Positions 8,312 through 56,413 of a DNA stretch of 58,056 bases are shown here, piece after piece. The stretch's first letter is position 1, and the number at the start of each line of letters is the position of its first letter. The position numbers were made by a program, and so were the translations under genes. The notes beneath the pieces were generated by a model. It was not told the DNA's origin. It saw nothing but the letters and a program-made list of their open reading frames with translations, and ran no database searches. The DNA comes from Bacteroidaceae bacterium (GTDB lineage: Bacteria > Bacteroidota > Bacteroidia > Bacteroidales > Bacteroidaceae): the NCBI GenBank assembly GCA_017940565.1, contig JAGAYH010000020.1, positions 1 through 58,056 on the forward strand. The letters run 5' to 3'.

Positions 8312-8438
8312 CGGTAAGCGTTCTCGTTCTCCCCAAATGCGTTTTCGTTTTGCCTAAATGCGTTTTCGTTTTTCCGAGGCGCCGCCTTTAACGTTTGAGG
8401 CGCCGTTTTGAAAATTCCACGCGCCGTTTATGTTTTTC
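8312..8438 (+). repeat. 21-bp-period intergenic array, six units of two types
   Basis: Three units of the first type begin at 8312, 8333 and 8354 (the last is CTAAATGCGTTTTCG). After a 22-bp step come three units of the second type at 8376, 8397 and 8418 (GAGGCGCCG cores, the third degenerate: CACGCGCCG). Within each set the period is exactly 21 bp. This fills most of the 327-bp divergent gap between the dipeptidyl peptidase and the M15 peptidase genes, and lies between the two putative core promoters. The two types share an xxAAxxCCGTTT-like core, and here they occur side by side. Confidence 0.75.
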
Positions 8439-8473
8439 GGAAGCCGACATCCTCTTTTTATTGGCCGTTTTTG

Positions 8474-8481
8474 TATTTTTG
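8474..8481 (+). promoter_or_regulatory. Bacteroidetes -7 box of the M15 peptidase gene
   Basis: TATTTTTG matches TAnnTTTG 23 bp before the ATG at 8505. No convincing -33 TTTG was seen. Confidence 0.45.
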
Positions 8482-8504
8482 TAGCGTCAAAACGGCGAAT
8501 ACGC

Positions 8505-9227
8505 ATGCTACGAACAAAAATAGTAATACTTCTGCTGCTGGCCACGTCAGCGCTCCGGGCGCAGCCGGCGGCCGATGGCAGCGACGCCCTGCACCGTTGG
8601 CAGGCCGGTGTGGCCGTGTCGGCCGAGGCCATAGCCCGTGTGGGCATGGACAGCTGTTTCCGTGCCGAGCCCGTCGGCGATGCCGTCTTTGCGCGCATGC
8701 TCGGTAAGTCGTATCCCAAGGACTGCCCCGTGGCGCGCTGTGACCTGCGCTACGTGCGCGTGCTCCACTACGACTGGCAGGGCCGTGTGCTGACGGGCGA
8801 ACTGGTGTGTCACCGGCAGATTGCCGACGACGTGGTGCAGGTGTTCCGCCAGCTCTACCGCCAGAAGTACCCCATCGGCAGCGTGCGGCTCATCGACGAC
8901 TTCGACGCCGACGACGAGCGTTCCATGCGGGCCAACAACACGTCGTGCTTCTGCTACCGCAGCGTGAACGGCTCACAAAAATTGTCGAAGCACGCCCGCG
9001 GACTGGCCGTCGACATCAATCCGCTCTACAACCCCTGCCGCCGCCGGACAAAAAACGGCCGCTGGCGCGTGGAACCGGCCACGGCCGTGCCCTACTGCGA
9101 CCGTACCAAGACCTTCCGCGGCAAGATAGATCGCCAGGACCTCTGCTACCGCCTCTTCACCGCCCGCGGCTTTACCTGGGGCGGCAACTGGCGCACGCTG
9201 AAGGACTGGCAGCACTTCGAAAAGTAG
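8505..9227 (+). CDS. Exported M15-type peptidase (D-Ala-D-Ala carboxypeptidase-like)
   Basis: 240 residues from ATG 8505, which gives a signal peptide (MLRTKIVILLLLATSALRAQ); the longer frame from 8430 crosses the promoter. The C-terminal half has the M15 zinc signature: SKHARGLAVDIN with His163 and Asp170, and the third ligand His237 in WQHFEK at the extreme C-terminus. YRSVNGSQKLSKHARG and GFTWGGNW fit the Peptidase_M15_4 type. The family cleaves peptide bonds with D-amino acids in peptidoglycan. It stands 43 bp before the VanX-like gene, so two peptidoglycan peptidases of the same clan are probably co-transcribed. Confidence 0.87.
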   Translation: MLRTKIVILLLLATSALRAQPAADGSDALHRWQAGVAVSAEAIARVGMDSCFRAEPVGDAVFARMLGKSYPKDCPVARCDLRYVRVLHYDWQGRVLTGELVCHRQIADDVVQVFRQLYRQKYPIGSVRLIDDFDADDERSMRANNTSCFCYRSVNGSQKLSKHARGLAVDINPLYNPCRRRTKNGRWRVEPATAVPYCDRTKTFRGKIDRQDLCYRLFTARGFTWGGNWRTLKDWQHFEK

Positions 9228-9270
9228 TTCACACAATTAAATAACAAACCAAGGGAAAAGAACCGTAACC

Positions 9271-10035
9271 ATGAAGAAAGAAACGCTCAAGACGCTCGTC
9301 GTCTTACTGATTCTATGCGCCGTGATTGCCGCCACGTGCTACTATCGCGCCCATCCGAAAGAAAAAGTGATAACGCCGGAGGACAACAGCGAGTTTGTCA
9401 ATCTGACGGACGCCGTGCCCGACGCCATTCTCGAAATCCGCTACTTCGGCACCTACAACTTCGTGGGCGCCCGCATCGACGGCTACAAGGCCCCCGTCGC
9501 CCTGCTCACCCGTGTGGCCGCCGACAGCCTGCGCGCCGTCAGCGACGACGTGATGAAACAGGGCTACCGGCTGAAAATCTACGATGCCTACCGTCCGCAA
9601 GAGGCCGTGGACCACTTCGTGCGCTGGGCCGAGGATGTGGCCGACACGCTGATGAAGCCTTACTTCTATCCCGACTTGGACAAGTCGGTGCTCTTCGCCC
9701 AGGACTATATTGCCGAAAAGAGCGGACACACCCGCGGCTCCACCGTTGACCTGACCCTCTTCGACATGCAGACCGAGAAGGAACTCGACATGGGCGGCAC
9801 CTTCGACTACTTCGGCCCCGAGAGCCATCCCGACTTCGGCGGCAACCCCGAGACCGGCGAATACGCCCCCGCCAAGGGCATCACCGCCGAGCAGTTTGCC
9901 CACCGCATGCTGCTGCGCCAGGCCATGCTGCGCCACGGTTTCAAACCGTTCGACTCCGAGTGGTGGCACTTCACGCTGAAGGACGAACCCTTCCCCGACA
10001 CCTATTTCACCTTCCCGGTGAAACCGATCAGATAA
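9271..10035 (+). CDS. VanX-type D-alanyl-D-alanine dipeptidase (M15D)
   Basis: 254 residues with an N-terminal membrane anchor or signal (TLVVLLILCAVIAATCYY). VanX hallmarks are visible: YDAYRPQEA, SGHTRGSTVDLTLFD with zinc ligands His153 and Asp160, and SEWWHF with the catalytic Glu230 and zinc ligand His233. Family members hydrolyse D-Ala-D-Ala; outside vancomycin-resistance clusters they recycle cell-wall dipeptides. No vanH or vanA gene is nearby, so a recycling role is more likely than resistance. It follows the M15 gene by 43 bp. Confidence 0.9.
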   Translation: MKKETLKTLVVLLILCAVIAATCYYRAHPKEKVITPEDNSEFVNLTDAVPDAILEIRYFGTYNFVGARIDGYKAPVALLTRVAADSLRAVSDDVMKQGYRLKIYDAYRPQEAVDHFVRWAEDVADTLMKPYFYPDLDKSVLFAQDYIAEKSGHTRGSTVDLTLFDMQTEKELDMGGTFDYFGPESHPDFGGNPETGEYAPAKGITAEQFAHRMLLRQAMLRHGFKPFDSEWWHFTLKDEPFPDTYFTFPVKPIR

Positions 10036-10101
10036 GGTCCGCCGCCTACATCCCACTGGCGGCACGCGCCTTCCGCCGGCCCGTCTCATCGTTCAAAGAC
10101 A

Positions 10102-10158
10102 CGAAAACGGATTCGGGCGGCGCGAAAACGGAGTTAGTCGCGACGAAAGCGGATATAG
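10102..10158 (-). repeat. 21-bp-period intergenic array, three units
   Basis: CGAAAACGG or CGAAAGCGG cores begin at 10102, 10123 and 10144, a period of exactly 21 bp. The best unit, read on the minus strand, is CTAACTCCGTTTTCG. The array lies 44 bp upstream of a TAATTTCG box (10203-10210) before the antiporter gene. Confidence 0.75.
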
Positions 10159-10226
10159 AAAAATGCTCGTGCGGCGGATAGACTCCGATGAAAAACTTTT
10201 TGTAATTTCGCAGAAATTTCGACAGC

Positions 10227-11174
10227 ATGTTATTAGACCTACTTTTCATAATCATAGGCATCGCCCTCGTACTGTGGGGTGCCGACAAGTTTACCGACGG
10301 TGCCAGTGCCCTGGCCCGCCGCATGAAAGTGCCCCCCATCGTCATCGGCCTCACCGTGGTGGCCATGGGCACCAGTGCGCCGGAACTCTTCGTGAGCATG
10401 GCTTCAGCGCTCAAGGGCTCATCGGGCATGGCGCTGGGCAACATCGTGGGCAGCAACATCTTCAACGCTTTGGCCATCGTGGGTTGCGCTGCCCTTGTAG
10501 CCCCCATCGTCATCACGCCGGGTACGGTGAAGAAAGACATTCCCTTCGCCATCGTTGCCTCGGCGGCCTTGGCCCTGCTCACCCTCATCGATGGCCGTCT
10601 CGACCGCATCGACGCCCTGCTGCTGCTCGCCGGTTTCGCCGTCTTCATGGTCTATACCCTGCGGCTGGCGCGGAGCGGCAACGCACAGCAGGAAACGACC
10701 GGCGAAGCGGCTGACGCGACACCTGCCAACCTCTGGAAGTGTCTCGGGCTTATAGTGCTGGGACTGGCCTGTCTGATTGTGGGCAGCAACATCTTCGTGA
10801 ACTATGCCTCTGACGTGGCCCGTCAGTTGGGTGTGAGCGATGCCGTGGTCGGCCTCACCATCGTGGCCTGCGGCACCAGCCTGCCCGAACTGGCCACCAG
10901 CGTGGTCTCTGCCCGCAAGGGCGAGAGCGCCATCGCCATAGGCAATGCCATCGGGTCGAACGTGTTCAACATCCTGCTGATTCTCGGACTCACGGGAACC
11001 ATCTGCCCCATGACCCTCGGCGGCATCACCTGGATTGACATGGCCATGATGTTGGGCAGCATCGGGCTGCTATGGCTGTTCTCGTTCACAAAACTGCGGG
11101 TACAGCGGTGGGAAGGTGGCGTGCTTGTGGCCATCTTCCTGGCTTACATGACGTGGCTCGTCGTCACTGCCTAA
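10227..11174 (+). CDS. Na+/Ca2+ antiporter, CaCA family (YrbG-like)
   Basis: 315 residues, about ten hydrophobic segments and two inverted alpha-repeats typical of the family: GLTVVAMGTSAPELFVSMAS with GNIVGSNIFNALAIVG, and GLTIVACGTSLPELATSVVS with GNAIGSNVFNILLILG. The paired GTSxPE and GSNxFN motifs carry the cation-binding residues. It should exchange Na+ or H+ for Ca2+ across the inner membrane. It has its own upstream region with a 21-bp array and is followed by a large independent gene with a strong promoter, so it is probably monocistronic. Confidence 0.93.
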   Translation: MLLDLLFIIIGIALVLWGADKFTDGASALARRMKVPPIVIGLTVVAMGTSAPELFVSMASALKGSSGMALGNIVGSNIFNALAIVGCAALVAPIVITPGTVKKDIPFAIVASAALALLTLIDGRLDRIDALLLLAGFAVFMVYTLRLARSGNAQQETTGEAADATPANLWKCLGLIVLGLACLIVGSNIFVNYASDVARQLGVSDAVVGLTIVACGTSLPELATSVVSARKGESAIAIGNAIGSNVFNILLILGLTGTICPMTLGGITWIDMAMMLGSIGLLWLFSFTKLRVQRWEGGVLVAIFLAYMTWLVVTA

Positions 11175-11259
11175 ACGGCAAAAACTGTCCTACAACCTTA
11201 GGCTTACACAGTTTTTTTTCTTCGATTTTATCAATTTTTATGAGAAAAAACTGAATTTA

Positions 11260-11291
11260 TTTGGTTTTTTCTACACATCTCAGTATTTTTG
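11260..11291 (+). promoter_or_regulatory. Strong Bacteroidetes promoter before the metallophosphoesterase gene
   Basis: TTTG at 11260-11263, 20 bp spacer, TATTTTTG at 11284-11291: a complete match to TTTG-N19/21-TAnnTTTG. Transcription should start near 11298, which excludes the TTG codon at 11261 as the gene start and supports ATG 11342. Confidence 0.8.
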
Positions 11292-11341
11292 TGCCTATTA
11301 ATTTAAAGGTCAAAAAACAAACTGAAAAATTCTTATGTAAA

Positions 11342-14300
11342 ATGAAACAGAAATTTATTTTAGCGTTTCTGACCATGCTGATTTGTATGGGCGGAATGGG
11401 TGTAGGGGCTCAGAACAACGAACGGCTTTCGTTCGGAGTCATTTCTGACATCCACTTTGACAACCGTGTGGGCGAGGGAGCCATGGTGAAAGTGCCAAAG
11501 GCTCTGAAGAACCTGACTTCGCACAAGGCCCTTGACGCCTTGGCCGTGGTAGGCGACCTGGCCGACAGCGGAGCCGCATCTCAATACGAGATGCTCACAA
11601 GCGTCTTTTCAGACAAGGCAAACTTTACAAACCCCGTTGGAACATTCCTCTTCATGATGGGTAACCACGACAATTTCGACGCAAACGGGAAGTCGAACTT
11701 TCAGGAAGGGTTGAAGTCCTTTAACGGTGGAGAACCCTATCCTCTCCATTCCTATCGCGTCATTAAGGGTTATCCTTTCATCACCATCAGTATGAGCGCC
11801 GGTGGCAGCAATGATGTCAGCAACAGTTCGACGGGCAAAGCCGCCTATCCCGAAGAGGTGGTAAACCAACTGGACGCATGGTTGGCTCAGGCCAGCAACG
11901 AATGTCCCGGCAAGCCTATCTTCGTGTTCACCCATGTCCCGCCCCGTTGGTCGGTTTACGGTTCATGGTCAGAGTATGAGACGGGAAGCTCATGGTCAAT
12001 GAGCGTGCTCAACCCCGTGCTGAACAAATATCCCCAGGCCGTTGTGTTCGCAGGACACAGCCACTACCCCCTGGGTGACCCGCGCAGCATCCACCAGGGC
12101 ACCAACCCCGAATCGGCACATCAAAACTACTTTACTGTAATCAACACGGCGAGCACGACCTACTCCGAGATTAACCCCGGAGCCGTCAGCGCAGGCATTC
12201 ACCCCGAGGGCTATGCTTACGTGACCGAAGGCATGATTGTAAGCGAGCTGGAGAACGGCGACATTGACATCTGCCGTTACGACACCTATCGCAACCTGGA
12301 AATTGGTGCTGAAAAGCACTGGGTGCTCAAGGCCCCCTTCGATGGTTCAAAGTTTGAATATGCCGACATCCGTGATGCCAACGACAACCCTAACAACGTG
12401 GCTCTCCGTGACGGTATGCCCGCCCCGGTATTTTCTAAGAGCGCTGCAATCACGTTGGACGTTTCGGATTTCGACGCCGTAGCCACCTTCCCGCAGGCTA
12501 CCGACAACGACTGTGTATTCCGCTATCGCGTCCGCGTCAGCAAGGACGGACTGGTGGTCACCGAAAAATACATCTTCTCACAGTTCTACTTGAACACCGA
12601 CAAGCCCAAATCGCTGAGCTATACAATTCAGAACCTCGTTTCGAATGCTACCTATAACGTGGAGGTCGTAGCCTTTGACTCCTACGATAACGCATCAACA
12701 CCGCTTACCGCAACCTTCAAGGCTCCCACGATTGATGAAAGCAAAATTCCCGATGCTGACGGCCAGTGGAAGTTCGAAGACAAGAACGACCTTCTGAAAG
12801 TAGAGAAGGGCGACATGTCCTTGGTTCCCTGCCTTGTTGGCAACAAATCCATATCAACTGCCGAAAGTGTGACCGAGGCTAACATCACATCCGTTGATGG
12901 TCCGACAGCCAGCAACAAGGCCATCGTGGTTCCCAAGTCATCGGCCCTCAAAGCCGTGCGTGTCAATAAAGAAGCAACGCAGAACTATACCATCATGATG
13001 GACATCAAGGTGGCAGATGCCAATTCATACAACGGACTGATTCAGACGAATGCCAGCAACAGCAACGACGCCGACCTGTTCTACGCTAAAAACAAGATTG
13101 GCATGAACGCCATGGGAGGATACTTCGGAGAAATCAAAAACAACACATGGTACCGCGTGGTCATGGTGAACCGCGACGGGAAGGTTACCGTTTATGTGGA
13201 CGGAGAAAATCTGATTAACACTGGCGGCGACCTGCGTTGGGAATTAGACCCGTGGGGATTCTACCTCTTCTGCGACGAAGACGGCGAAATGGTGGACACG
13301 GAAGTGGCCGAAATCGCTTATTGGGAAAGAGGACTCTCGGAGAATCAGATAAGAAGTCTCTCCGGTTTGGATCCTATCAACAACGACCAAGATCCCTACA
13401 TCACCGTGAAGACCTCGTCCGTCAAAATATTGGACGGACTGGATTTCTCCATCAAGATCGACGCCAACACATCCTTCACGTTTGACCTTCCCGACTGGAT
13501 TGAAGCTGTTGACGTCACGCCCTTTGCCGGTGAGAAGGCTTACACCTTTCGTGCCAAGTCAATGGATGCCAGCGGACGCCGCGAAGGCACCATTACCGTA
13601 AAGAGCAACAGTCTGGAAAGCCAGGATATTCAGGTTACCCAAATCTTCTTGGGCAAAGACATTCCCGAGGCGCTGGGTGTCTGGACCTTCGATAACCGGT
13701 CTGACCTGCTGCATGGGGAAGGCACTGCCGTGCTGGAAGGAGCATTCAACACAAGCGAAGGCCCTCAGAAAAGGCAGAATCTGGAAATAACCGGGCTTAA
13801 AGCCTCCGAAGGAGGAGGTCCGACCGAGTCCAACGGAGCCATCTTTGTTCCGAAGAACGCTTACCTGTGGCTTACGACCAATGCCAGCACCGAGGTGCTT
13901 TCCGACTATACCGTTATGTTTGATATCAAGCTCGCCGACCTGAACGGTTACAAGGCTCTCTTCCAAAACGACATTACGAATAAAGATGACGCTGGTCTCT
14001 TCTTCAAGAACAATCAAGTAGGTCTTGGCGCTACGCTCGGATATCATGGCAACTTGCAGGCCGGCCAATGGTACCGTCTGCTGTATGTTGTCAAAGACGG
14101 CCGCGCCATTCTTTATCTCGACGGTGAAAAATTGGGCGAGGCCGGCAATGCCAATGCCAAATGGCCCATCAACAAGGAAGCCTTGCTCTTTGCCGACGAC
14201 AGCAACGGCGACGAGGAAGGCCCGCTCGACGTGGCTGAAATTCGTTTTTGGGATTTGCCCCTTTCCGACGCCCAGGCCAAGAGGCTCGGCGACGTCTATA

Positions 14301-16018: not shown

Positions 16019-16042
16019 CAAACGATAACGTTGCATACTGAA

Positions 16043-16079
16043 GAACGCGTCCCCATCGGGGGGACGCGTTCTTTTTTTT
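16043..16079. terminator. Intrinsic terminator between convergent genes
   Basis: Perfect 12-bp stem (GAACGCGTCCCC paired with GGGGACGCGTTC), short loop and a following run of seven T. It ends the phosphoesterase transcript and may also serve the convergent BASS gene. Confidence 0.9.
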
Positions 16080-17073: not shown

Positions 17074-17091
17074 TGCGGCGCGAAATTACAA

Positions 17092-17099
17092 CAAAGTTA
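17092..17099 (-). promoter_or_regulatory. Bacteroidetes -7 box of the BASS transporter gene
   Basis: The minus strand reads TAACTTTG 19 bp before the ATG at 17073. A -33 TTTG was not recognised. Confidence 0.45.
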
Positions 17100-17205
17100 C
17101 CATTTGCGCAACGTCATAGTGAAGAAAACCGCCTGCCTCCGGCCTCATCGCTCCCTTTCCCCTATGACGGTGCAGCCATAACCCCTCTTCCGGCACCTCT
17201 GATGG

Positions 17206-17384
17206 CAAAAAATCGTTACATTTCCCCGACAGACGTCCCGTTTCGGCGATTACAAGTGGGACTTCGGCGCACAGAAACGGCGTTTCAAAATTCCGAAGCG
17301 CCGCTTCTGTTTGCCTATTTCTGAGGCCCGATGATAATCAACGGATTACAAAACCATCAAAAACATTCCAAAAATTTTTGACAC
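17206..17384 (+). repeat. Composite intergenic element, copy A
   Basis: The element starts with a degenerate AAAAAATCGTTACA (from about 17206) and ends with AAAAATTTTTGACAC (to about 17384), about 164 bp apart. Between them is an array of four units at 17232, 17253, 17274 and 17295, exactly 21 bp apart; the third and fourth are the palindromic pair GAAACGGCGTTTCAAAATT and GAAGCGCCGCTTCTG. A GATGATAATCAACGGATTAC segment follows the array and recurs in the other copies. The element occupies the middle of the 460-bp gap between the BASS and leucine-rich repeat genes. Confidence 0.72.
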
Positions 17385-17454
17385 TTTCGCCCTGTTGAGG
17401 CTACTTTCGACTGTCGCATGCGTAGGAAGGCTTAGTGAAAAAACGCTCTAAAAT

Positions 17455-17485
17455 CTTGTTGCGTAACAAAATATTTATAACTTTG
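17455..17485 (+). promoter_or_regulatory. Bacteroidetes promoter of the leucine-rich repeat gene
   Basis: CTTG at 17455-17458, 19 bp spacer and TAACTTTG at 17478-17485. It lies 49 bp before ATG 17535 and fits the Bacteroidales consensus with one mismatch in the -33 element. Confidence 0.7.
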
Positions 17486-17534
17486 CAACGAATAGTAAGG
17501 AAAGAAGTCAATAATTATATAAAAGTATAAAACC

Positions 17535-20453: not shown

Positions 20454-20500
20454 TAAGGAAAAGACAGTAACTGTAGCCACTATAGGGACTATACATATAA

Positions 20501-20533
20501 ACGCGGCACACCTCATTCGGGCGTGCCGCGTTT
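20501..20533 (+). terminator. Probable terminator after the leucine-rich repeat gene
   Basis: Nine-base stem ACGCGGCAC / GTGCCGCGT with a 13-base loop. The T run that follows is short, so termination efficiency is uncertain. Confidence 0.5.
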
Positions 20534-21878: not shown

Positions 21879-21935
21879 CGAAAACGGAGTCAGTCGGGCC
21901 TAAATCGGATATAGGCGCGGCGAAAGCCGAGTCGG
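21879..21935 (-). repeat. 21-bp-period intergenic array, three units
   Basis: The CGG/CCG centres are at 21885, 21906 and 21927, exactly 21 bp apart. Units are CGAAAACGGAGTCAG, CTAAATCGGATATAG and CGAAAGCCGAGTCGG. The array lies between the murQ -7 box and the -33 box of the divergent HerA-like gene. Confidence 0.75.
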
Positions 21936-23647: not shown

Positions 23648-23710
23648 GAAACGGCGCTTCAAAAATTTGAAACGGCGCCTCGAAATTTCGAGGCGCCGTT
23701 TCGTTCGCTT
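23648..23710. repeat. 21-bp-period palindromic array between convergent genes
   Basis: Three units start at 23648, 23669 and 23690: GAAACGGCGCTTC, GAAACGGCGCCTC and GAGGCGCCGTTTC. The second and third form a long perfect inverted repeat (GGCGCCTCGAAA / TTTCGAGGCGCC). The array fills the 93-bp gap between the stop codons of the HerA-like and transglutaminase genes, so it could form a bidirectional terminator hairpin. Confidence 0.75.
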
Positions 23711-26255: not shown

Positions 26256-26315
26256 CCAAAACGGAGATGGAAAGAACTAAATCGGATTTAGGCCGGACGA
26301 AGTCCGATTTGGTCG
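26256..26315 (-). repeat. 21-bp-period intergenic array, three units
   Basis: The CGG/CCG centres are at 26262, 26283 and 26304, exactly 21 bp apart. The middle unit is the palindromic CTAAATCGGATTTAG. The array is inside the 398-bp divergent gap before the EF-G paralogue. The rest of that gap (26316-26543) is AT-rich towards the gene; no clear core promoter or riboswitch was recognised in it. Confidence 0.72.
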
Positions 26316-26543
26316 TGCCGGACAGCTCGTTCCGGCCCGCAGGCCGGCGAAGGGAACAGGGCGGAAACGGGGCGGAAAAATAAAAAACAGGCAACTTCTT
26401 TGCGACTCTGTCGTTTTCTGTCGCGTTTTTGGCGGATGAACTGAAAAAAGCAAGATTAAAAGTTGGCCGTTCACCGATTTTTTGGTAAATTGCGCTCGCT
26501 TTTTGCAAATTCAGAAATAATACAATTAAATACAAATTAAATC

Positions 26544-28734: not shown

Positions 28735-28776
28735 GAAGCGGCGTCACAAAATTTTGTGGCGCCGCTTTGTGATACT
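28735..28776. repeat. Two-unit palindromic 21-bp array, possible terminator
   Basis: Units GAAGCGGCGTCAC (28735) and GTGGCGCCGCTTTGTG (28756) are 21 bp apart and form an inverted repeat 35 bp after the EF-G stop codon. It could act as a terminator hairpin. Confidence 0.65.
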
Positions 28777-28780
28777 ATTC

Positions 28781-28959
28781 AAAAAATCTTGACAAACCGT
28801 CGGCAGGGGTCCCATTTCGGCGCTCACAAGTGGGATTTAGGATTGCAGAAACGGCGTTTCAAAATTACGAAACGCCGTTTCTGTTTGGACAGGTTTGAGG
28901 ACTGATGAAAATCAAATGGTTACAAAGCTACCGGATTTTGGGTGAAAAATTTTGACAAA
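28781..28959 (+). repeat. Composite intergenic element, copy B
   Basis: AAAAAATCTTGACAAA at 28781-28796 and GAAAAATTTTGACAAA at 28944-28959 bound the element; their starts are 163 bp apart. The four-unit array starts at 28806, 28827, 28848 and 28869 (21 bp each), the last two being GAAACGGCGTTTCAAAATT and GAAACGCCGTTTCTG. CTGATGAAAATCAAATGG follows at about 28900. It lies in the 410-bp gap upstream of the six-hairpin glycosidase gene. Confidence 0.75.
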
Positions 28960-33285: not shown

Positions 33286-33342
33286 CAAATGCGTCTTCGT
33301 TTTCCCTAAATCGGATTTAGGTGCCGCCAACTCCGTTTTCGT
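33286..33342 (+). repeat. 21-bp-period intergenic array between two divergent promoters
   Basis: Units centred on TGCGTCTTCG (33290), TCGGATTTAG (33311) and TCCGTTTTCG (33332) keep the 21-bp register; the middle unit is the palindromic CTAAATCGGATTTAG type. The array lies between the -33 boxes of the regulator and of the ADP-ribosylglycohydrolase gene. Confidence 0.72.
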
Positions 33343-33415
33343 TCTTACGTGTGGCGACCTTCATGGGTGTTTTCACAGGTTCTGAATATAAAAAAATAAA
33401 AAAGTTGCCGATTTA

Positions 33416-36798: not shown

Positions 36799-36834
36799 AC
36801 GCGCGGCTTACCACAGGGTAAACCGCGCGTTTTT
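36799..36834 (+). terminator. Intrinsic terminator of the ADP-ribosylglycohydrolase-type gene
   Basis: Stem ACGCGCGG / CCGCGCGT extended by TTACC / GGTAA, followed by TTTTT. Confidence 0.85.
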
Positions 36835-37007
36835 GTCAAAACTTTTTACGTTAAAACCCAACGTTTTGTAACTCGTTTGTTATCACAGGATGCCAAATGT
36901 GGCAAATCAGAAACGGCGTCTCAAAATTTTGAAACGCCGTTTCTGCGGCCCGATGTCCGACTTCTGGGCACTGAAATCCGGCCCCTGTCCCCGGAGTGTC
37001 CAAAAAG
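36832..37007 (-). repeat. Composite intergenic element, copy D (opposite orientation)
   Basis: On the minus strand the element runs from CTTTTTGGACAC (about 37007) to AAAAAGTTTTGACAAA (36847-36832). The four array units start on the plus strand at 36910, 36931, 36952 and 36973, exactly 21 bp apart, with consensus GAAAnnCCGnTTTCTG. TGTGATAACAAACGAGTTAC on the minus strand corresponds to the GATGAAAATCAA-GGATTAC part of the other copies. The 164-bp distance between the end motifs is kept. It lies between convergent genes. Confidence 0.7.
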
Positions 37008-40943: not shown

Positions 40944-41022
40944 CTAACTCCGTTTTCGTCCTTTCTAAATCCGTTTTCGTGCGAACTAACTCCGTTTTCG
41001 TTTTTACATTGTCCATCTTCGT
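40944..41022 (+). repeat. 21-bp-period intergenic array, four units
   Basis: CCGTTTTCG begins at 40950, 40971 and 40992, and the degenerate CCATCTTCG at 41013, exactly 21 bp apart. Full units read CTAACTCCGTTTTCG, CTAAATCCGTTTTCG and CTAACTCCGTTTTCG. It is the clearest array of the first type and lies in the 328-bp divergent gap between typA and the ECF sigma gene. Confidence 0.8.
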
Positions 41023-46157: not shown

Positions 46158-46173
46158 CGCTCCCCTCCCTGCA

Positions 46174-46278
46174 AAGGCGGCGCCTCGAACTTCAGAAGCG
46201 GCGCCTCAAAATTTAGAAACGCCGTTTCTGATTTTTGAAGTCCGACCTTTGAAAGGGAAACTCAGTTTTCTGGTCGTC
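46174..46278. repeat. 21-bp-period intergenic array, three clear and two weak units
   Basis: Units start at 46174, 46195 and 46216 (AAGGCGGCGCCTCGAAC, GAAGCGGCGCCTCAAAATT, GAAACGCCGTTTCTG), with weaker ones at 46237 (GAAGTCCGAC) and 46258 (AAACTCAGTTTTCTG). All are 21 bp apart. The array starts 16 bp after the barrel gene's stop codon. Confidence 0.7.
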
Positions 46279-46398
46279 GGAACACGGGGGCTGAGAAAAA
46301 AGAGCCGGTTTGCCTTGAAAAAAGTGCCGTCCGAGATGTTACAAAAACGGCATGATGGCGTTTAATAGATAGAAAGAAACAATAAAACGAATACAGAC

Positions 46399-48129: not shown

Positions 48130-48150
48130 GACGGGGCTGGTTTTGATGAA

Positions 48151-48207
48151 CGAAAACGGAGTTAGTTTTGCCTAACTCCGTTTTCGTTTTTTCTAACTCC
48201 GTTCCCG
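48151..48207. repeat. 21-bp-period array with inverted first unit, between convergent genes
   Basis: CGAAAACGGAGTTAG (48151) is the exact reverse complement of CTAACTCCGTTTTCG (48172); CTAACTCCGTTCCCG follows at 48193. Unit starts are 21 bp apart. The first two form a perfect 15-bp inverted repeat with a six-base loop, followed by a T-rich stretch (TTTTTT at 48187-48192), so it can also act as a terminator for the transglutaminase gene. Confidence 0.78.
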
Positions 48208-48226
48208 TTCCGTCGGGGCGGGGCGT

Positions 48227-49249: not shown

Positions 49250-49255
49250 GCGTAT

Positions 49256-50404: not shown

Positions 50405-50413
50405 AAGGCGTGT

Positions 50414-51514
50414 TTACTTCAGGAACACAATCTTGTTGGGGTTGATGCCATAGGCAGGGAAAGCCAACTGGTAGGTGCCGTCGGCCTTGAACTTGTAGAT
50501 GATGCCGTCGGTTGAGAAGTCGGTCGTGGCAAGGAAGATGTCGCCCGTGTAGGGGTTGACGCTCATGCTGTAAGCTGAAGATGACTTGATGGCTTCGGGC
50601 ATTTCCTTGAAGAATGTATTGTTCTTCTTGTCTGTGGTCAGGTCGTAGGTGTAGAGTGTCGTTACTGTACTTACATCAGGCCAGTTGCTCCAGTCTGTTT
50701 CAGACATGGCGGCATAAACCACATTGTTATAAACGGTGTAAGCCGTTGCGTTGCCCTTCTGTGTGTATTCCTTCGTGTCGGGATTGATGGTGCCCCAAGG
50801 ATAGCTGTTGTCGGAGCCGTAGCCCTGCACGAGAATAGCGTTGTCAGAAGCCAGCACGTTGTCAGGATTGCCCATCACTTCGATATATTCCACGGCATCG
50901 AACTTGTTGGCATCAATAACGGCCACGCGCTTGTCAGCGCCCCAACCGGAAACGGCGCAGTAAATCTTGCCGTCTTTCTCTGCCAAGGTTTCGGGATAAG
51001 TGCCCACCTTGAGGGAATCCACGTAGTTCAGTTTGTTGCCGCTGATGCGGAGCTTGCTCACGTAGCCTCCGTAAGAGGAAACGAATACGTTGTTGCCCGA
51101 CACGGCAAGGCTGCGTACCTGGCCGAGGTGCTTGTATTCTTCGCCTTCAAAGGAGAGGCGGCTCTTTTCGACGCCTGCACCTGTGAGCAGGGCTACATAG
51201 TTGGACACATTGACGGCAACCAAAATCTTGTCGCCTGCCATGCAAATGTCATTGCCGGTATCGCCGAGCTGCTTTCCGTTCTGTTCGGTGAAGATGCACT
51301 TGGGATAAACGAGATCTTCCTGCCAGTCAAAGTAAATGATGTTGGAATTGTTGGAACCGGCGTTGCCTTCGTTGAGGATGTATGCACGGGTATCGGCCAT
51401 TTCCATTTGACTGCCGTCGCGCCAGTCTTCGTTGTCATCGTCACTGCAGGAGGTGAAGCCTGCCGTTACCATCATGGCGCAGAGGGCGCCGAAGAAAAGT
51501 TTTCTGAATTTCAT
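50414..51514 (-). CDS. BtuG-like surface lipoprotein (DUF5074-type beta-propeller)
   Basis: 366 residues with a lipoprotein signal (Cys23 in GFTSCSDDDNED); the acidic residues after the cysteine are the surface-export type signal of Bacteroidetes lipoproteins. The rest is a YncE-like propeller (ILNEGNAGSNNSNIIYFDWQ, LVAVN-type strands, VRSLAVSGNNVFVSSYGGYV, GKIYCAVSGWGADKRVAVID). BtuG of Bacteroides captures B12 with very high affinity and passes it to BtuB. The position between btuB and btuF supports the same job. Start spacing is 33 bp after btuB. Confidence 0.85.
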   Translation of the reverse strand: MKFRKLFFGALCAMMVTAGFTSCSDDDNEDWRDGSQMEMADTRAYILNEGNAGSNNSNIIYFDWQEDLVYPKCIFTEQNGKQLGDTGNDICMAGDKILVAVNVSNYVALLTGAGVEKSRLSFEGEEYKHLGQVRSLAVSGNNVFVSSYGGYVSKLRISGNKLNYVDSLKVGTYPETLAEKDGKIYCAVSGWGADKRVAVIDANKFDAVEYIEVMGNPDNVLASDNAILVQGYGSDNSYPWGTINPDTKEYTQKGNATAYTVYNNVVYAAMSETDWSNWPDVSTVTTLYTYDLTTDKKNNTFFKEMPEAIKSSSAYSMSVNPYTGDIFLATTDFSTDGIIYKFKADGTYQLAFPAYGINPNKIVFLK

Positions 51515-51547
51515 TGTTTATTGGTTTTATTGGTTTGTATTTGATTA

Positions 51548-53611
51548 TTACCATTGGAAGGTGGCCGTGAGATGCCACGAGCGCCGCGGCATGGGGTAAT
51601 ACTTGACCACTTCGTATTGTTTGTTCTCCAGATTGACCACGCTGGCGGCCAGTTTGAGCCGTGAGGCTCCGAGCCGGAAGTCGCGGCTCAGGGTCAGGCT
51701 GCTTTCGGTGTACTGACGGATGCGGTATTCAGGCTTGTTCTGTCCCATAGAGTAGCGTGAACCGCAATAGCAGAGCGAGTAGCCTACGTTGACCCACGGG
51801 TTGTTGAGAATGATTGACAGGTTGCCGTGGCTTCGCGGGGTGTAGGGCACGTCGTTGTTGTAGGTCTGTGATTTCGGGTTGGTCTTGTCTTTTGCTCTTT
51901 GTTGTGTGAAGTTTCCCGTCAGCAGGGCGCTTACATTGCGTGTGAGTGGAATTTCGGTAGCCATGGTGACATCTATTCCCCAGATTTCCACCTTGCCGAA
52001 ATTGGCCATTTTCCACACATAGGTTGTCGGGAAGGCCACAATCTTGTCGTGCACGTGGTTGTAGTAGCCGTCCACGGTCAGCGAGAGGTATTTGATCCAC
52101 CGAGCAGGGCTTCCGCTCCAGGTCAGTCCGGCGTTGTATTCCGTGGCTTTCTCGGGTTTCAGGTTGGTGCTGCCCATGCGGTAGTAGTACTGGTCGTTGA
52201 AGGTCGGCATGCGGAAGGTGTTCTTGTACATCAGCCGGGCAAAGAACGACTGTTCAGGCAGCAGCCGCCAGGTGGCCGCCACGGTGGGCGAGAGGCGCCG
52301 GCGGTCGTCTGGTTTCTTGCCGGCATGAACGTCTTCAGTAGCATAGGTGCCCGTGAGATTGCCCTGAATGTTCACTCTTGCGGTGCGCCATTGGGCTGTC
52401 AGTGCCGTCAGTGAAGTGAAGCGGCGGGGGTTGGCCGGTACGACTTCCACGTTGCGCAGTATATTGTTGCGCAGGTCATTGAACGCGATGTCCTGGGCCA
52501 GGGCGAAGGACAGGTTTTCCAGAGGTTGCCAGCCGGCCGTGGCCGAGGCGTAGTATTCGTTCTGACGGTTTACGTCGCGGAATTTGTAGCGTGGGTCGGT
52601 ATAGCGGTTCCATGTGTGGGTGTACTTCATGCGCCCCTGGAGTTGCCACTGCCGTGAGAAGTGTTTGCTGTAGAGGGCCTGCGCATAGAAGTCTTCGTCC
52701 CACAGACGTTCTTCCGACGGATTGGCGTAGAAGATGACGGTGCCCGGCAGCCCGCGTTCGGAGCGGTACCACATCGTTTTCAGGTGCATTTGGCTGCCGT
52801 CGGCGAAGGCGTGGCGCAGGTCGGCCTGGCCTTGCCACGATGTCACTTCTGAGTTGTAGCGTTTCTCCTTCGAACGTTTTGAGGCGTTGAGCAGGCTGTA
52901 GGGGTAGGTGCCGTCGCTATGCATGAAGTAGGCGTCGAGCGAGAGGACGGTGCGGCGGGCCAAGCGGCGGTCGTAGTGGAGCGAGGGATTTGCCAGTCCG
53001 AAGGAGCCGGTCTTCATGGTTAGCCGTAACTGGTTGTTGCGCTCGGTCGTGAGTAACGGTGTCTTCGACTCGATGTCGAGCACGCTGGCGGCGGCATAGT
53101 GGCGGGCCGACTGCATGAGGTTGTCGCTATGGCCCGTGGAGAGGGTCAGCCGCTCCACGTTGTCGAGCAGGTAGCGTCCGATGTCAATTTGTCCGGCCTG
53201 GGTGTTGCTCACCACGATGCCGTCGTAGCTCACGGCCGTGTGGTGGGCGCCGAGGTTGCGCACGGAAACGGTCTTCATGCCGCCCACACCGCCGTAGTCG
53301 CGCACGGTGGTGCCGGCAAAGCGCTTCACGGCTTCTGCCACGTTTTCCAACCCCAGGGCTTCTATTTCCGTGCGCTCCATGGTCTGCAGCGGTTTCGTGG
53401 CGAGCACGTCGGCCGCGGTCTTGTGACCGCTCACGCTGGCAGTGCCCATACGGCGCACCTCCGTGGTGTCGCCGGCTGCCGGGCAGCGGGGGAGCAACAT
53501 GGCAGCCGGGGCCGTGCTGTAGCTTAGGCTTAGCATGGCCACGAACGCCCGTATCAACACGCTACGGCAGTTCTCTCTCTGCTTTTTGATATTTCTTCCA
53601 AGATTACCCAT
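51548..53611 (-). CDS. btuB: TonB-dependent cobalamin receptor BtuB
   Basis: 687 residues from ATG 53611 (MGNLGRNIKKQRENCRSVLI). The frame is open to 53815, but the extra 68 codons lie on the riboswitch, so they are not translated. A plug domain is present (EIEALGLENVAEAVKRFAGT then VSVRNLGAHHTAVSYDGIVV), and the barrel ends in HLTATFQW with the terminal aromatic. A TonB box could not be fixed with confidence. The protein should import cobalamin through the outer membrane, with BtuG as lid. First gene of the btuB-btuG-btuF-btuC operon. Confidence 0.92.
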   Translation of the reverse strand: MGNLGRNIKKQRENCRSVLIRAFVAMLSLSYSTAPAAMLLPRCPAAGDTTEVRRMGTASVSGHKTAADVLATKPLQTMERTEIEALGLENVAEAVKRFAGTTVRDYGGVGGMKTVSVRNLGAHHTAVSYDGIVVSNTQAGQIDIGRYLLDNVERLTLSTGHSDNLMQSARHYAAASVLDIESKTPLLTTERNNQLRLTMKTGSFGLANPSLHYDRRLARRTVLSLDAYFMHSDGTYPYSLLNASKRSKEKRYNSEVTSWQGQADLRHAFADGSQMHLKTMWYRSERGLPGTVIFYANPSEERLWDEDFYAQALYSKHFSRQWQLQGRMKYTHTWNRYTDPRYKFRDVNRQNEYYASATAGWQPLENLSFALAQDIAFNDLRNNILRNVEVVPANPRRFTSLTALTAQWRTARVNIQGNLTGTYATEDVHAGKKPDDRRRLSPTVAATWRLLPEQSFFARLMYKNTFRMPTFNDQYYYRMGSTNLKPEKATEYNAGLTWSGSPARWIKYLSLTVDGYYNHVHDKIVAFPTTYVWKMANFGKVEIWGIDVTMATEIPLTRNVSALLTGNFTQQRAKDKTNPKSQTYNNDVPYTPRSHGNLSIILNNPWVNVGYSLCYCGSRYSMGQNKPEYRIRQYTESSLTLSRDFRLGASRLKLAASVVNLENKQYEVVKYYPMPRRSWHLTATFQW

Positions 53612-53639
53612 CCGCTTTTCCTCGAAACGGTTTTCAGGT

Positions 53640-53811
53640 CTGTGGTGGCAGGTCTTCTGGCTTGTCCCCGTGCAAGACGCCTTCCCAAGCGGTGGGCTCA
53701 GTGGACTGTGTTCTATGTCTTGCCGAAAACGGGACTTACAGCAGCGGGACTGCCCGGGACTCTCACCCGGTTCCCTATTATCGCCCTGGGGGGCGAACCA
53801 CCGTTTTATTG
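53640..53811 (-). promoter_or_regulatory. Cobalamin riboswitch upstream of btuB
   Basis: On the minus strand the region ends with the B12-box AGCCAGAAGACCTGCC (53662-53647), an almost exact match to the conserved core of cobalamin riboswitches. Upstream are the G/C-rich helices and GGCG loops expected of the aptamer (CACCGGTTCC-type and GGGGGGCGAACCACC on the plus strand). The B12 box ends 36 bp before the btuB ATG, so a kissing-loop model with masking of the ribosome-binding region, that is translational repression by B12, is plausible. Confidence 0.93.
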
Positions 53812-53817
53812 TCACTG

Positions 53818-53825
53818 CAAAATTA
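53818..53825 (-). promoter_or_regulatory. -7 box of the btuB operon
   Basis: The minus strand reads TAATTTTG. Transcription would start near 53811, at the 5' end of the riboswitch. Confidence 0.6.
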
Positions 53826-53938
53826 CGGATTTATATTGGAAAACAGTCTATGTGTTGCCGATTATTTCTCTGGTCAAAGGTTAACAGCGGTTTGGGACGG
53901 CGATTCCGGCATGCCGCTTTGTGGGGTATGGGAGTTCC

Positions 53939-54118
53939 AAAAAATCTTGACAAATACGTGCCAGGGGCCGGACTTCGGCTTTCCGAGGCGCCGTTTCGTG
54001 ATTTTGAAACGCCGTTTCTAAATGCCGAAACACCGTCTTTGTTCGGGGTGGACTTAACTACTGGTGAAAATCAGTGGATTACAAAAACCAAGGAAAAGTG
54101 GTGAAAAATTTTGACAAA
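53939..54118 (+). repeat. Composite intergenic element, copy C
   Basis: AAAAAATCTTGACAAA at 53939-53954 and GAAAAATTTTGACAAA at 54103-54118, starts 164 bp apart. Array units start at 53964, 53985, 54006 and 54027 (21 bp each): the last three are GAGGCGCCGTTTCGTG, GAAACGCCGTTTCTA and GAAACACCGTCTTTG. GGTGAAAATCAGTGGATTAC follows at about 54063, as in copies A and B. The element fills most of the rest of the 620-bp gap between btuB and the sugar transporter gene; 53826-53938 holds nothing else that I recognise. Confidence 0.75.
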
Positions 54119-54177
54119 ACCCGTCGGTGTCCAGTGCCGGATGGCGCCCGATAATATGTAATGAGCCGTAACAAAAC

Positions 54178-54209
54178 GGGCGGGAGAAGTCTGATGACCT
54201 CTCCCGCCC
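54178..54209 (-). terminator. Terminator of the ribokinase/transporter operon
   Basis: Ten-base stem GGGCGGGAGA / TCTCCCGCCC; on the minus strand it is followed by GTTTTGTT. Confidence 0.75.
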
Positions 54210-54231
54210 TTATGGTATAGTTTGTCTTATG

Positions 54232-55230
54232 CTATTCTCCGGCGGCCACAATGAGGGCGAGGCCGAGGATGAAGCAGGTGAACATGATCAGCAGCAGCCG
54301 GTTGGTGGTTTTGTCGGCGCCCTTGAACTCCTTCCAGACGAATACGCCCCACAGGGCGGCTATCATGGGTGCGCCCTGGCCCAGGGCATAGGAGATGGCG
54401 GCGCCGGCCTTGCCGGCGGCAATATAGCTGAGCACGGTGCCGAGACCCCAGACGCATCCGCCGAGGATGCCCACGAGGTGGAGCTTGGCGGAACCGGCAA
54501 AGTAGGTCTTGTAGCTTACGGGCTCACCCTGGAAGGGACGCTTCATGGCGATGGTGCCCCAGAGGAAGTTGCTCAGGAAGATGCCCAGGGCGAAGAGGAA
54601 GAAGGCGGTGTAGGGCGTGGCCTTGCCCACGGCGGGAGCCACGAAGTTGTCGAGGTCCATGCCTTTGGATACAAAGGCGTAGAAGAACGACATGAGTATA
54701 CCGGCCACGACGGCGAGCACGATGCCTTTCTTATTGGAACTTTCGCCTTTCTGCAGGCGGCCCGAGGCCATGCCGTTGACGACGATGGCCACTACCACGA
54801 GAAGCACACCGATGAAAAGCAGCGTGGGATTGCCCTTGGCCTGGACGAAGTAGGTCTGGATGACTCCCAGTACCAACGCGATGCCCACGCCTACGGGGAA
54901 GGCTACGGCCATGCCGGCCATGGACACGCTGGCGGAGAGCAGGATGTTGGAGAGGTTGAAGATGATGCCGCCGACGAGTATCCATGCCACGGTGGCGCCG
55001 GACACTTGGGCGAGATCTTCGCAGAAGGGACGGCCCTGGCTGCCTATGCTGCCCAGCGTGAAGCCGATGAGCAGGGAAAAGAGCAGGATGCCAATGACGT
55101 AGTCCCAGTAGAACAATTCATAGCGCCAGCTTTTGGCGGCGAGTTTCTGGGTGTTGCCCCACGAACCCCAGCATATCATCGTGACTACGCACAGCACGAC
55201 GGCCAGGACATAACTGTTGACGATAAACAT
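54232..55230 (-). CDS. GRP/DMT-type sugar transporter (RbsU-like)
   Basis: 332 residues with ten membrane helices. The start (MFIVNSYVLAVVLCVVTMIC, then WGSWGNTQKLAAKSWRYELF) and GGIIFNLSNILLSASVSMAGMAVAFPVGVG (read as GGIIFNLSNILLSAS then GMAVAFPVGVGIALVLG) fit the glucose/ribose porter family of the drug/metabolite transporter superfamily. It starts 22 bp after the ribokinase gene, so ribose or a related pentose is the likely substrate. It should be proton-driven, as it has no ATPase partner. Confidence 0.8.
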   Translation of the reverse strand: MFIVNSYVLAVVLCVVTMICWGSWGNTQKLAAKSWRYELFYWDYVIGILLFSLLIGFTLGSIGSQGRPFCEDLAQVSGATVAWILVGGIIFNLSNILLSASVSMAGMAVAFPVGVGIALVLGVIQTYFVQAKGNPTLLFIGVLLVVVAIVVNGMASGRLQKGESSNKKGIVLAVVAGILMSFFYAFVSKGMDLDNFVAPAVGKATPYTAFFLFALGIFLSNFLWGTIAMKRPFQGEPVSYKTYFAGSAKLHLVGILGGCVWGLGTVLSYIAAGKAGAAISYALGQGAPMIAALWGVFVWKEFKGADKTTNRLLLIMFTCFILGLALIVAAGE

Positions 55231-55252
55231 AAGCCTATATTTTTATTATGAA

Positions 55253-56164
55253 TTAATCTATTTCGCCACGTTTGGGAATGCTCATCCAGGCGCCGCGGCG
55301 GGTCACGCTGAGGGCGGCGGCGCGGTTGGCAAAGCGGATGGCTCCGGTCAGGCCGTTGCCTTCGCTCAGGGCTACGCAGAGCGCGCCGCAGAAGGTGTCG
55401 CCGGCAGCCGTGGTGTCCACCACTTCGGTCTTCACGGCGGGTATGTTCACCAGCGAACCGCTCTCCGCGGTGTAGGCCCCCTTGCTTCCTGCGGTGAGGA
55501 TGACCTGCTTGATGCCGGTGGCCTGGATCTTAAGGATGGCTTGCAGGGCCGAGGCTTCGTCGGTGATGCTGATGCCGGCCATCATGCTGGCTTCGGTCTC
55601 ATTGGGCGTGATGATATCGACCAGGGCGAGCAGTTCGGCCGGCAGGGGCTCTTTGGGGAATGGCGCGGGATTGAGCACCACGAGTGCTCCCCCCTCACGG
55701 GCCAGGCGGGCGGCACGGATAAGGGTGTCGACGGGCGTTTCCAGTTGCATCAGCACGATGCCGGCCTCGCGGATGGTGTCTGCCGCGGCATCGATGTCGG
55801 CCGGCGTAAGCAGCGCGTTGGCACCGCTGGCCACGATGATGGAGTTCTCGCCGCGGCAGTCAACGGGTATCATGGCCACACCGGTGGCCACGCCCTCGGT
55901 GAGGAGCACGTGGCGTGTGTCAATGCCTTCTTCTTTAAGCAATGCGATTGATTGGCGTCCGAAACCGTCGTCGCCTACGCGGGCTACGAAGGCGGTCGTT
56001 CCGCCCAGGCGGGCCACGGCCACAGCCTGGTTGGCTCCCTTGCCGCCTTGGTTGGTCATGAAGTCGTGTCCGATGATGGTCTCGCCTGGTGCAGGCAGGT
56101 GGTCCACGCTGATAACGAGGTCGGTGTTGCAACTGCCGACCACTACTATCCGAGTCTTTTCCAT
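55253..56164 (-). CDS. rbsK: Ribokinase (PfkB family)
   Basis: 303 residues. PfkB/ribokinase motifs are complete: VVVGSCNTDLVISVDHLPAP with GGKGANQAVAVARLG, the sugar-binding FVARVGDDGFG, the acidic NETEASMM strand and the signature DTTAAGDTFCGAL with the catalytic aspartate. Residues such as the K+-site SRRGAW-type end (VTRRGAWMSIPKRGE) fit ribokinase. It phosphorylates ribose to ribose 5-phosphate after uptake by the adjacent transporter. First gene of the two-gene operon. Confidence 0.92.
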   Translation of the reverse strand: MEKTRIVVVGSCNTDLVISVDHLPAPGETIIGHDFMTNQGGKGANQAVAVARLGGTTAFVARVGDDGFGRQSIALLKEEGIDTRHVLLTEGVATGVAMIPVDCRGENSIIVASGANALLTPADIDAAADTIREAGIVLMQLETPVDTLIRAARLAREGGALVVLNPAPFPKEPLPAELLALVDIITPNETEASMMAGISITDEASALQAILKIQATGIKQVILTAGSKGAYTAESGSLVNIPAVKTEVVDTTAAGDTFCGALCVALSEGNGLTGAIRFANRAAALSVTRRGAWMSIPKRGEID

Positions 56165-56188
56165 TTCCTATGTTTTCTGTTTGTGGCG

Positions 56189-56218
56189 TAAAGTTACAGA
56201 TTTATTTTTATTCACAAA
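56189..56218 (-). promoter_or_regulatory. Promoter of rbsK
   Basis: Minus strand: TTTG (56218-56215), 18 bp spacer, TAACTTTA (56196-56189), 24 bp before the ATG. One mismatch in the -7 box and a slightly short spacer. Confidence 0.5.
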
Positions 56219-56337
56219 ACTTTTTTACTACTAAATGCAAAATCGATTGTGCAAAGAGTCCCTTTCCTGCCTTTCTGAGGTAAGCCAGGTGTCGGCCAAA
56301 GGGCTTGTTCCGCCCTCTTGCAGTCCTCTGGGTGGCG

Positions 56338-56413
56338 CCAACTGCGTCTTCATTTTTCCTAAGTCCGTTTTCGTCGGCCCTAAGTCCGTTTTCGTTCTGC
56401 TGAGCCGTTTTCC
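56338..56413 (+). repeat. 21-bp-period intergenic array, four units
   Basis: Units start at 56338 (CCAACTGCGTCTTCA), 56359 and 56380 (both CTAAGTCCGTTTTCG), exactly 21 bp apart; the fourth (CTGAGCCGTTTTCCC, near 56400) is offset by one base. The array lies between rbsK and the methylmalonyl-CoA mutase gene, upstream of the rbsK promoter. The remaining part of the 325-bp gap shows no other feature. Confidence 0.75.

Follow-up and report, generated by a model that had tools for sequence, protein, structure and literature searches.

Phased Intergenic Dyad Arrays in a Bacteroidaceae Genome and Its Relatives: Constant Two-Turn Geometry and Species-Dependent Cores

Introduction

Among the described systems closest to the arrays treated here, LytTR regulators use tandem direct repeats ~21 bp apart and have few targets per genome, and the genome-wide sites of chromosome-organising proteins (matS/MatP, the Noc sites and parS) are single sites of stable sequence. 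BldC forms a cooperative head-to-tail oligomer on phased direct repeats at many promoters, and the Neisseria DNA uptake sequence dialects consist of a species-specific, high-copy short motif that also occurs within genes. The arrays themselves are runs of short quasi-palindromic units that recur every 21 bp between the genes of a 58,056-bp stretch of contig JAGAYH010000020.1. This whole stretch, called the window, comes from a Bacteroidaceae bacterium whose genome is coded G000, and its coordinates are used throughout.

A comparison of the arrays with these systems shows likeness and difference in each case. The arrays resemble the repetitive extragenic palindromic (REP), BIME and REPIN sequences that accompany RAYT in being short, palindromic, extragenic, present in high copy, typed by species and sometimes clustered, but the array-bearing genomes searched have no Y1_Tnp match, and the arrays keep a strict 21/22-bp register, fold weakly in one of their core types (type A) and persist in position under other cores. 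They share same-face two-turn spacing with LytTR sites, but the LytTR domain was not found in G001 and G014, two relatives of G000. Like matS/MatP, Noc and parS sites, they are short palindromes at many chromosomal places, but they form phased arrays whose sequence differs within one genus. Unlike BldC targets, they are dyads, occupy convergent gaps as well and have species-dependent cores, while the Neisseria uptake sequences, unlike the arrays, have no fixed helical array. Searches of an open-access library (including PMC5771137, PMC8040213, PMC3733652 and PMC6006769) found such arrays described nowhere for Bacteroidales, in line with an earlier sequence-only reading of the window, which knew of none; a paper on P. 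gingivalis states that it left short repeats of 3 to 31 bp unannotated.

What stays constant in the arrays is their geometry; the letters hold within a genome but change from one genome to the next. The sequence-only reading overlooked the other cores of relatives, the 22-bp period of some of them and the change of cores at kept positions. We propose, with about even confidence, that the arrays are operator-like dyads, two helical turns apart, for one or more cooperative DNA-binding proteins of species-variable specificity.

Period and Unit Design in the Window

When the sequence is laid out in 21-base rows, 21-bp columns align at all 16 starts (Table 1) for which a shared 21-bp design had been claimed. 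The window-only template test covered 22 intergenic segments (5,824 bp) and found 34 core-template pairs at 21 bp, 1 at 20 bp and 0 at other spacings from 14 to 39; shuffled segments average 0.0 pairs at 21 bp. Template-free self-match blocks (threshold of at least 11/16) number 18 at lag 21 and 10 at lag 42, with 0-3 at each remaining lag between 12 and 45; the lag-21 mean in shuffles is 1.25. The 16 sets had been assigned to 15 gaps; all the starts stand, but the gaps are 14, and the sets at 8312 and 8376 form one six-unit array. The sets at 28735 and 28806 share one gap in different registers.

Nearly every gap longer than about 90 bp after position 8177 was said to hold an array, and 14/18 window gaps of at least 90 bp do. 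Those without one are 1063-1511, which lies in the less GC-rich head of the window, 5781-5969, 11175-11290 and 20454-20813, the last of which contains a tRNA (20640-20721; Rfam, gathering level).

Each unit is a quasi-palindrome of 13-16 bp with an unconserved spacer. The two core types first distinguished prove too few. The type A core is CTAAMTCCGTTTTCG(T), with ~5 unconserved bases separating cores, and the type B core is GAARCGSCGYTTC; type C, GAAGTSSSACTTC, is frequent in a relative and present in G000 too, and a palindromic relative of A, CTAAATCSGATTTAG (at most 3 mismatches), has 27 intergenic occurrences in the 424-kb sample described below. Among template-picked units, a 16-bp core is conserved and ~5 spacer bases are not. 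In type A (142 units), information content is above 1.3 bits at 13/15 positions of the core, a value inflated by picking units with at most 3 mismatches to the template.

Unlike core types keep one register, as in the unbroken phase from A-like to B-like units at 8312..8437. Centre distances from A to B units, searched to 300 bp and reaching 126 at most, are 0 modulo 21 in 17/24 pairs, 20 in 5/24 and 19 in 2/24, the 24 pairs being drawn from 7 gaps. Units at an exact two-turn period in a shared register lie on the same face of the helix, as had been proposed. The spacers between them differ: adjacent A units of the same orientation agree at 1.81/5 spacer bases, against 1.54/5 between different arrays (n=57), and fully identical spacers join 4/57 such neighbours, a small surplus. 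Since neighbouring A spacers resemble each other hardly more than spacers from unrelated arrays do, fresh tandem duplication does not account for most arrays, and the spacers speak mostly against simple tandem duplication as their origin.

Distribution in the Source Genome

The wider sample of G000 comprises 424 kb, namely 20 stretches and the window, with genes called by a home-made hexamer caller. All 20 stretches were chosen around type-A hits; gap fractions taken from them are too high for the whole genome, and the window figure is the fairer one. Intergenic self-match in this sample peaks at lag 21 (0.315), lag 42 (0.294) and lag 63 (0.279) over a background of ~0.255, while coding sequence has codon rhythm only, with no extra 21-bp self-match. 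The template-free count of tandem blocks is 92 at lag 21, and no other lag between 12 and 33 exceeds 4. The positions of the units show the periodicity that the sequence-only reading had expected of them, with centre distances of 21 (146), 42 (63), 63 (8) and 84 (5), and at most 3 at any other value. Over the whole genome, 83 type-A pairs lie at 21 bp (at most 3 mismatches) and type-B pairs occupy 87 places (at most 1 mismatch); the reversed control pattern gives 0 for each. A variant core, AWATGCG, has 44 matches in G000 and 1 in the relative G018. The 21-bp arrays are neither chance nor coding rhythm.

They are also confined to intergenic DNA. Type-A units number 144 between genes (3.54/kb) and 14 in ~384 kb of coding sequence (0.036/kb), a density ~100x higher between genes than within and far from the equal frequency that would have spoken against such a family. 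Type-B units number 70 (1.72/kb) and 51 (0.133/kb), respectively, and coding sequence holds 5 palindromic-A hits. The statement that coding sequence is free of units is therefore right for 21-bp self-match and wrong for single hits.

The placement of type A is indifferent to the direction of transcription, with 39 units oriented with it and 38 against it in tandem gaps. Units in divergent gaps lie a median of 136 bp from the nearest called start (5th percentile 72 bp, n=57), so that arrays there do sit outside the start region, as had been noted. In these stretches picked around A hits, type A occurs in 20/35 divergent and 6/32 convergent gaps (p=0.002). Since arrays are found in most long gaps of the window, next to genes whose functions are unrelated, and show no preferred direction with respect to transcription, a chromosome-wide role is likely rather than a single regulon.

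Relatives with Other Cores

Among the 19 genomes of the genus, type-A pairs (at most 1 mismatch) occur in G000 only, and type-B pairs in just one genome besides G000, namely G018 (a Prevotellaceae metagenome-assembled genome; L059). Template-free analysis of G018 gives 47 blocks at lag 21, with no more than 4 at any other. G001 has 14 blocks at lag 21, 8 at lag 42 and at most 2 elsewhere; G016 has 47, some of them made up of simple repeats, and 25, with up to 23 elsewhere (lag 14). Other relatives use 22 bp. Lags 22 and 44 give 15 and 12 blocks in G019 (at most 4 elsewhere), 19 and 14 in Bacteroides sp. Marseille-P3684 (10 at lag 14, 9 at lag 21) and 15 and 11 in B. heparinolyticus (up to 6 elsewhere). 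Little signal was found in Paraprevotella xylaniphila (2 and 2 blocks) or in 41 kb of B. faecis (3 at lag 22, 3 at lag 44, up to 4 elsewhere).

High-copy cores are restricted to one or a few species. The core TTCCA-N5-TGGAA occupies ~304 places in G001 and 0 in the 18 other genus genomes. TYTAATCGCG has 202 matches in G016, 83 in G015, 14 in G002 and 0-2 in the rest, and TCAACGTGTTG forms 327 pairs in G019 and 220 in G020 (Bacteroidaceae), with 0 in 14 other genomes. The reversed control of the TYTAATCGCG search gives 2 matches in G006 and 11 in G007, which makes low counts in these two genomes meaningless; they may have cores of their own that resemble the reversed control pattern.

A broader survey used 79 named loci fetched through a protein like elongation factor G (EF-G), with L138 left out for its simple repeats. 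At least one block is present in 45 of these loci at lag 22, in 41 at lag 44 and in 33 at lag 21, and at least two blocks in 29, 18 and 13, respectively; the remaining lags between 12 and 45, multiples of 21 and 22 excluded, give 2-33 loci with at least one block and 0-9 with at least two. A further sample took one stretch from each of 18 genomes, 17 of which belong to other families of the order and 1 to another genus of the family. It shows no excess, the blocks numbering 4 + 4 at lags 21/22 and 0-5 elsewhere; each other-family sample is a single 20-kb stretch of little power. On this thin sample the array trait looks concentrated in the family Bacteroidaceae. Isolated 21/22-bp repeats occur in two of the other-family samples, L228 and L235.

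Further repeats were seen in passing. In L206 (G022), ~5811-19387 contains many CAATTGACAATTG-type repeats at lag 21, distinct from the 22-bp dyad arrays of G022, which has 10 lag-14 blocks too. In Bacteroides pyogenes (L107 17929-18400), a long 22-bp tandem array of ~13 copies of TTGAAAACAGAGCCTCTGATGC precedes a 21-bp array built from a different unit.

Orthologous Gaps of G000 and G018

Seventeen orthologous gaps reach a length of 90 bp or more in G000 as well as in G018. Arrays are present in both species in 13 of them, in G018 only in 1, in G000 only in 0 and in neither in 3, and 0/680 shuffled gaps are array-positive; as the detector templates came from these two genomes, the shuffles guard against chance and not against template choice. 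An earlier detector, applied to 19 gaps of at least 90 bp in at least one species, gave 6 with arrays in both, 5 in G000 only, 4 in G018 only and 4 in neither.

Unlike cores occupy orthologous positions. The dominant core type differs in 8/13 gaps with arrays in both species. Type A dominates nine of the 13 in G000, and their G018 counterparts are B/C-dominated in 8 (1 by tie, 2 still with A-like units) and an A/C tie in the ninth. The other 4 are B-dominated in G000, and all are B in G018. A tie rule decided 2/13 gaps: L147 2644 (A/C) was counted as the same and L158 10726 (C/B/A) as different. The array at 40944 aligns in phase with its type-B-like counterpart. The gap 36776-37017 is nearly identical to G018 L147 13896-14137, while most other aligned gaps have diverged; the gene at one end of it is 99.7% identical between the two genomes and the gene at the other end 84%, and the gap may be the product of a recent exchange.

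A fixed period under changing cores is also what would be expected of a shape or supercoiling element (for gyrase, HU or the like), in which helical phasing alone matters and core letters are incidental. In keeping with this, dyad-centre distances in G000 peak at the half-period of 10.5 bp (21 pairs), followed by 21 (14). In relatives 22 bp stands out (27), and 11 (18) is no different from 8.5 (18) or 10.5 (17). These distances were used in place of two other measures of dyad symmetry. Perfect dyads with 6-bp arms, too strict a criterion, gave 2 pairs at 22 bp and 5 at 23 bp in relatives; a dyad score on first-copy blocks of named relatives found at least 6/7 pairs in 4% at lag 21 and 12% at lag 22, against 4% in shuffles, and was uninformative, with lags 17, 19, 23 and 24 scoring higher than 21/22. 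Shape alone does not require a core to be conserved at many places per genome, however, and the cores of G001 and G019 each have more than 300 matches. We regard this explanation as quite improbable.

Hairpins and a Dispersed Element in Type B

Type B differs from type A in folding. The median RNA-fold z is -5.5 for type B, -1.05 for type A and -0.4 for random intergenic pieces, and 94% of 50 type-B strands have z < -2. Type-B units covary as paired strands in G018 (p=0.001, 0.0001) and not in G000 (p=0.78, 0.65), and the central base is complementary in 45/49 and 22/25 type-B pairs. The strong folds, the covariation between units in G018 and the occurrence of type B in 8/32 convergent against 3/35 divergent gaps (p=0.10) are what bidirectional transcription terminators or RNA 3'-end hairpins would show. 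Type A, in contrast, folds weakly and is commoner in divergent than in convergent gaps, and RNA hairpins need no exact 21-bp step across core types. Terminator-like sites in 36700-56500 of the window number 21, about what chance predicts (20.1), and only two of them overlap arrays (53984-53998 and 56334-56348). An RNA hairpin fits type B far better than A and fails as a general explanation, which we consider rather improbable; the terminator role suggested in the sequence-only reading is thus possible mainly for type B and poorly suited to type A.

Part of type B lies inside a longer dispersed element. It runs from a TTGACA-like end through 4 phased units, 36-37 bp and GATTACAA or GTTACAA to a second TTGACA, and it holds 8 type-B arrays of the G000 sample and 5 of the G018 sample. 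The end-to-end distance of the window copies is 163 bp in 3 and 164 bp in 1. Eleven copies from G000 and G018 align nearly gapless across 172 columns, in an alignment that omits the copy at 53947 and also L147, a near-identical copy. On this layout, part of type B could be mobile or, alternatively, a regulatory element of greater length. No comparable dispersed frame was noticed for type A, for which no search aimed at one was made.

The hairpins of type B and its dispersed element, whose TTGACA-like ends stand at a distance of 163-164 bp, recall REP/REPIN-like selfish palindromes, which are extragenic repeats of species-specific types spread by a trans-acting transposase. So do the high copy number, the extragenic position, the one to few types per genome and their dependence on species. 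Parts of the literature likewise report CGTC-tagged, REP-like repeats from several phyla including Bacteroidetes (PMC3733652) and a subclass of Y1 transposases, mostly from Bacteroidetes, with atypical structures (PMC6006769). Set against these are the strict two-turn period, the weak type-A hairpins and the positions kept with other cores. Y1_Tnp (PF01797), the domain of RAYT, has a match in 1/12 genomes only, G017, whose 20-kb sample contains no 21-bp block; none was found in G000, G001, G012, G014, G016, G018, G019, G020, G022, G029 or G030, in a search of genomes whose completeness is 99% for G001 and 63-80% for G000, G018 and G016. The GTAG/CGTC tags of REP/REPIN sequences characterize neither type: CGTC ends 28/144 type-A units, whose core itself ends in CGT, GTAG is present in 3/144, and among 14 exact type-B pairs of the samples a tag stands at the outer ends in 2 and CGTC at the inner junction in 1. 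A REP-like role in the RAYT sense, which had also been offered, is contradicted by these results, and selfish palindromes of this kind seem to us unlikely. The arrays lie outside REP by its defining features and are a new REP variant only if every extragenic palindrome counts as one.

A Candidate Protein Reader

A protein that reads a dyad and touches its neighbour could account for the period, the register, the intergenic placement, the indifference to gene content and the changed cores, a proposal that we hold to be equally open to being right or wrong. The dyads of ~13-16 bp, with centres two turns apart (21 bp; 22 bp in some relatives), would all lie on one face of the DNA. Each would be bound by a sequence-specific dimeric protein, of one kind or more, which would contact its neighbours along that face and whose specificity would coevolve with the cores between species. 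The role would be to organise the nucleoid, to insulate neighbouring transcription units or to regulate generally from promoter flanks. Of the roles first offered, a target for a global DNA-binding protein fits type A best. In its broadest form, with a dyad ruler throughout Bacteroidaceae, read by a cooperative protein or its paralogues, and hundreds of sites re-lettered together at unchanged position and spacing, the proposal is more tentative, and we place it somewhat short of even confidence.

The global regulator Lrp/AsnC is one candidate for such a reader. It is present in 14/15 genomes searched, the one without it being G018 (68% complete), and Lrp-like proteins oligomerise on phased dyads, with a usual spacing of about three turns that speaks against it. 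The stretch that we take to be its recognition helix reads SRAVVHQRV in G001, G012, G014, G015 and G016 and SRAVVHQRI in G000 and G017, genomes with unrelated cores. It is identical in G019 and G022 despite their different cores, one of three copies being compared in each, and also occurs in other families of the order (G119, G151). Lrp is very improbable as the reader. The LytTR domain, found in 8/12 genomes, is missing from G001, G014, G018 and G012, and LytTR was rejected for this role. HU-HIG has a match in 52/61 genomes across the phylum, with array status known for 1/61, and is too widespread to inform. A look for an autoregulated reader gene next to the longest arrays of G000, G016, G019 and G001, made by eye on the first 60 residues of the flanking genes, showed no shared feature.

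Several results weigh against a protein reader of phased dyads. None was found among the candidate families searched (LytTR, HU-HIG, Lrp), and G001 (99% complete) and G014 (95%), both LytTR-free, show 21-bp arrays. G022 has three unlike cores in one genome, which is awkward for a single reader. A lag-21 block occurs in 8 of the 17 congeners sampled (3.7-20 kb each; G006 read N) and is absent from the samples of G003, G005, G007, G009, G010, G011, G012, G013 and G017. Folding is modestly in excess in type A, where 37% of 122 strands have z < -2; among 60 random pieces the share is 15%. The hairpins of type B and its covariation in G018 suit nucleic-acid structure better than a protein dyad, and the location of part of type B within the 163-bp element suits mobile DNA.

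Features of the Window

The arrays of the window and the further copies of the dispersed element are collected in Table 1.

Table 1. Arrays and composite elements of the window, with element copies found elsewhere
Feature	Position	Strand	Remarks
Six units, one register (8312, 8333, 8354, 8375, 8396, 8417)	8312..8437		3 type-A-like (plus), then 3 type-B-like; Tandem Repeats Finder period 21
3 type-A units, minus orientation (CGAAAACGGAGTTAG)	10102..10164		
Composite element	17215..17383	+	GTTACA 17215; units 17232, 17253, 17274, 17295; GATTACAAAAC; TTGACA 17378
3 type-A-like units	21879..21935		Orthologous G018 gap: array with other cores
3 type-B units, convergent gap	23648..23710		G018 likewise type B
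3 type-A-like units, upstream of EF-G-like gene	26256..26318		
2 type-B-like units, mutually inverted	28735..28776		
Composite element	28789..28957	+	TTGACA 28789, 28952; units 28806, 28827, 28848, 28869
3 type-A-like units, divergent gap	33286..33348		
Composite element	36834..37002	-	Gap near-identical in G018
3 type-A units	40944..41006		Orthologous G018 gap: type-B-like cores, same phase
3 type-B units, then C- and A-like units in register	46174..46271		Same in G018
3 type-A units (1 minus, 2 plus), convergent gap	48151..48213		
Composite element	53947..54116	+	TTGACA 53947, 54111; units 53964, 53985, 54006, degenerate 54027
3 type-A-like units	56338..56400		
Further element copies	G000: L022, L024, L026, L029; G018: L058, L147, L148, L162, L164		

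Rfam at gathering level finds only a cobalamin riboswitch and the tRNA in the window, and no family over any array. The riboswitch (53630-53817, minus strand) lies upstream of a large minus-strand gene (51548-53560) and shares its gap with a composite element. The window head, 1-5130, is less GC-rich (0.486 vs 0.567), has a single called gap longer than 90 bp, which is arrayless, and is possibly acquired DNA. Within it, 1224-2942 on the plus strand is a single frame of 572 aa with an extracytoplasmic function (ECF) sigma factor domain at the N-terminus and an outer-membrane beta-barrel domain at the C-terminus; it is either a natural fusion or two genes run together.

Implications

If the arrays are mobile palindromes without RAYT, they would make up a REP-like class that is new and unusual in being constrained in position. 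If instead they are phased dyads on which a protein docks, a major family of gut bacteria would have undescribed, chromosome-wide protein-docking arrays in which geometry is conserved and letters are not. Such arrays would provide a bacterial example of the concerted turnover of hundreds of binding sites, and they would open a way into the chromosome organisation of these bacteria and guide the annotation of their intergenic DNA.

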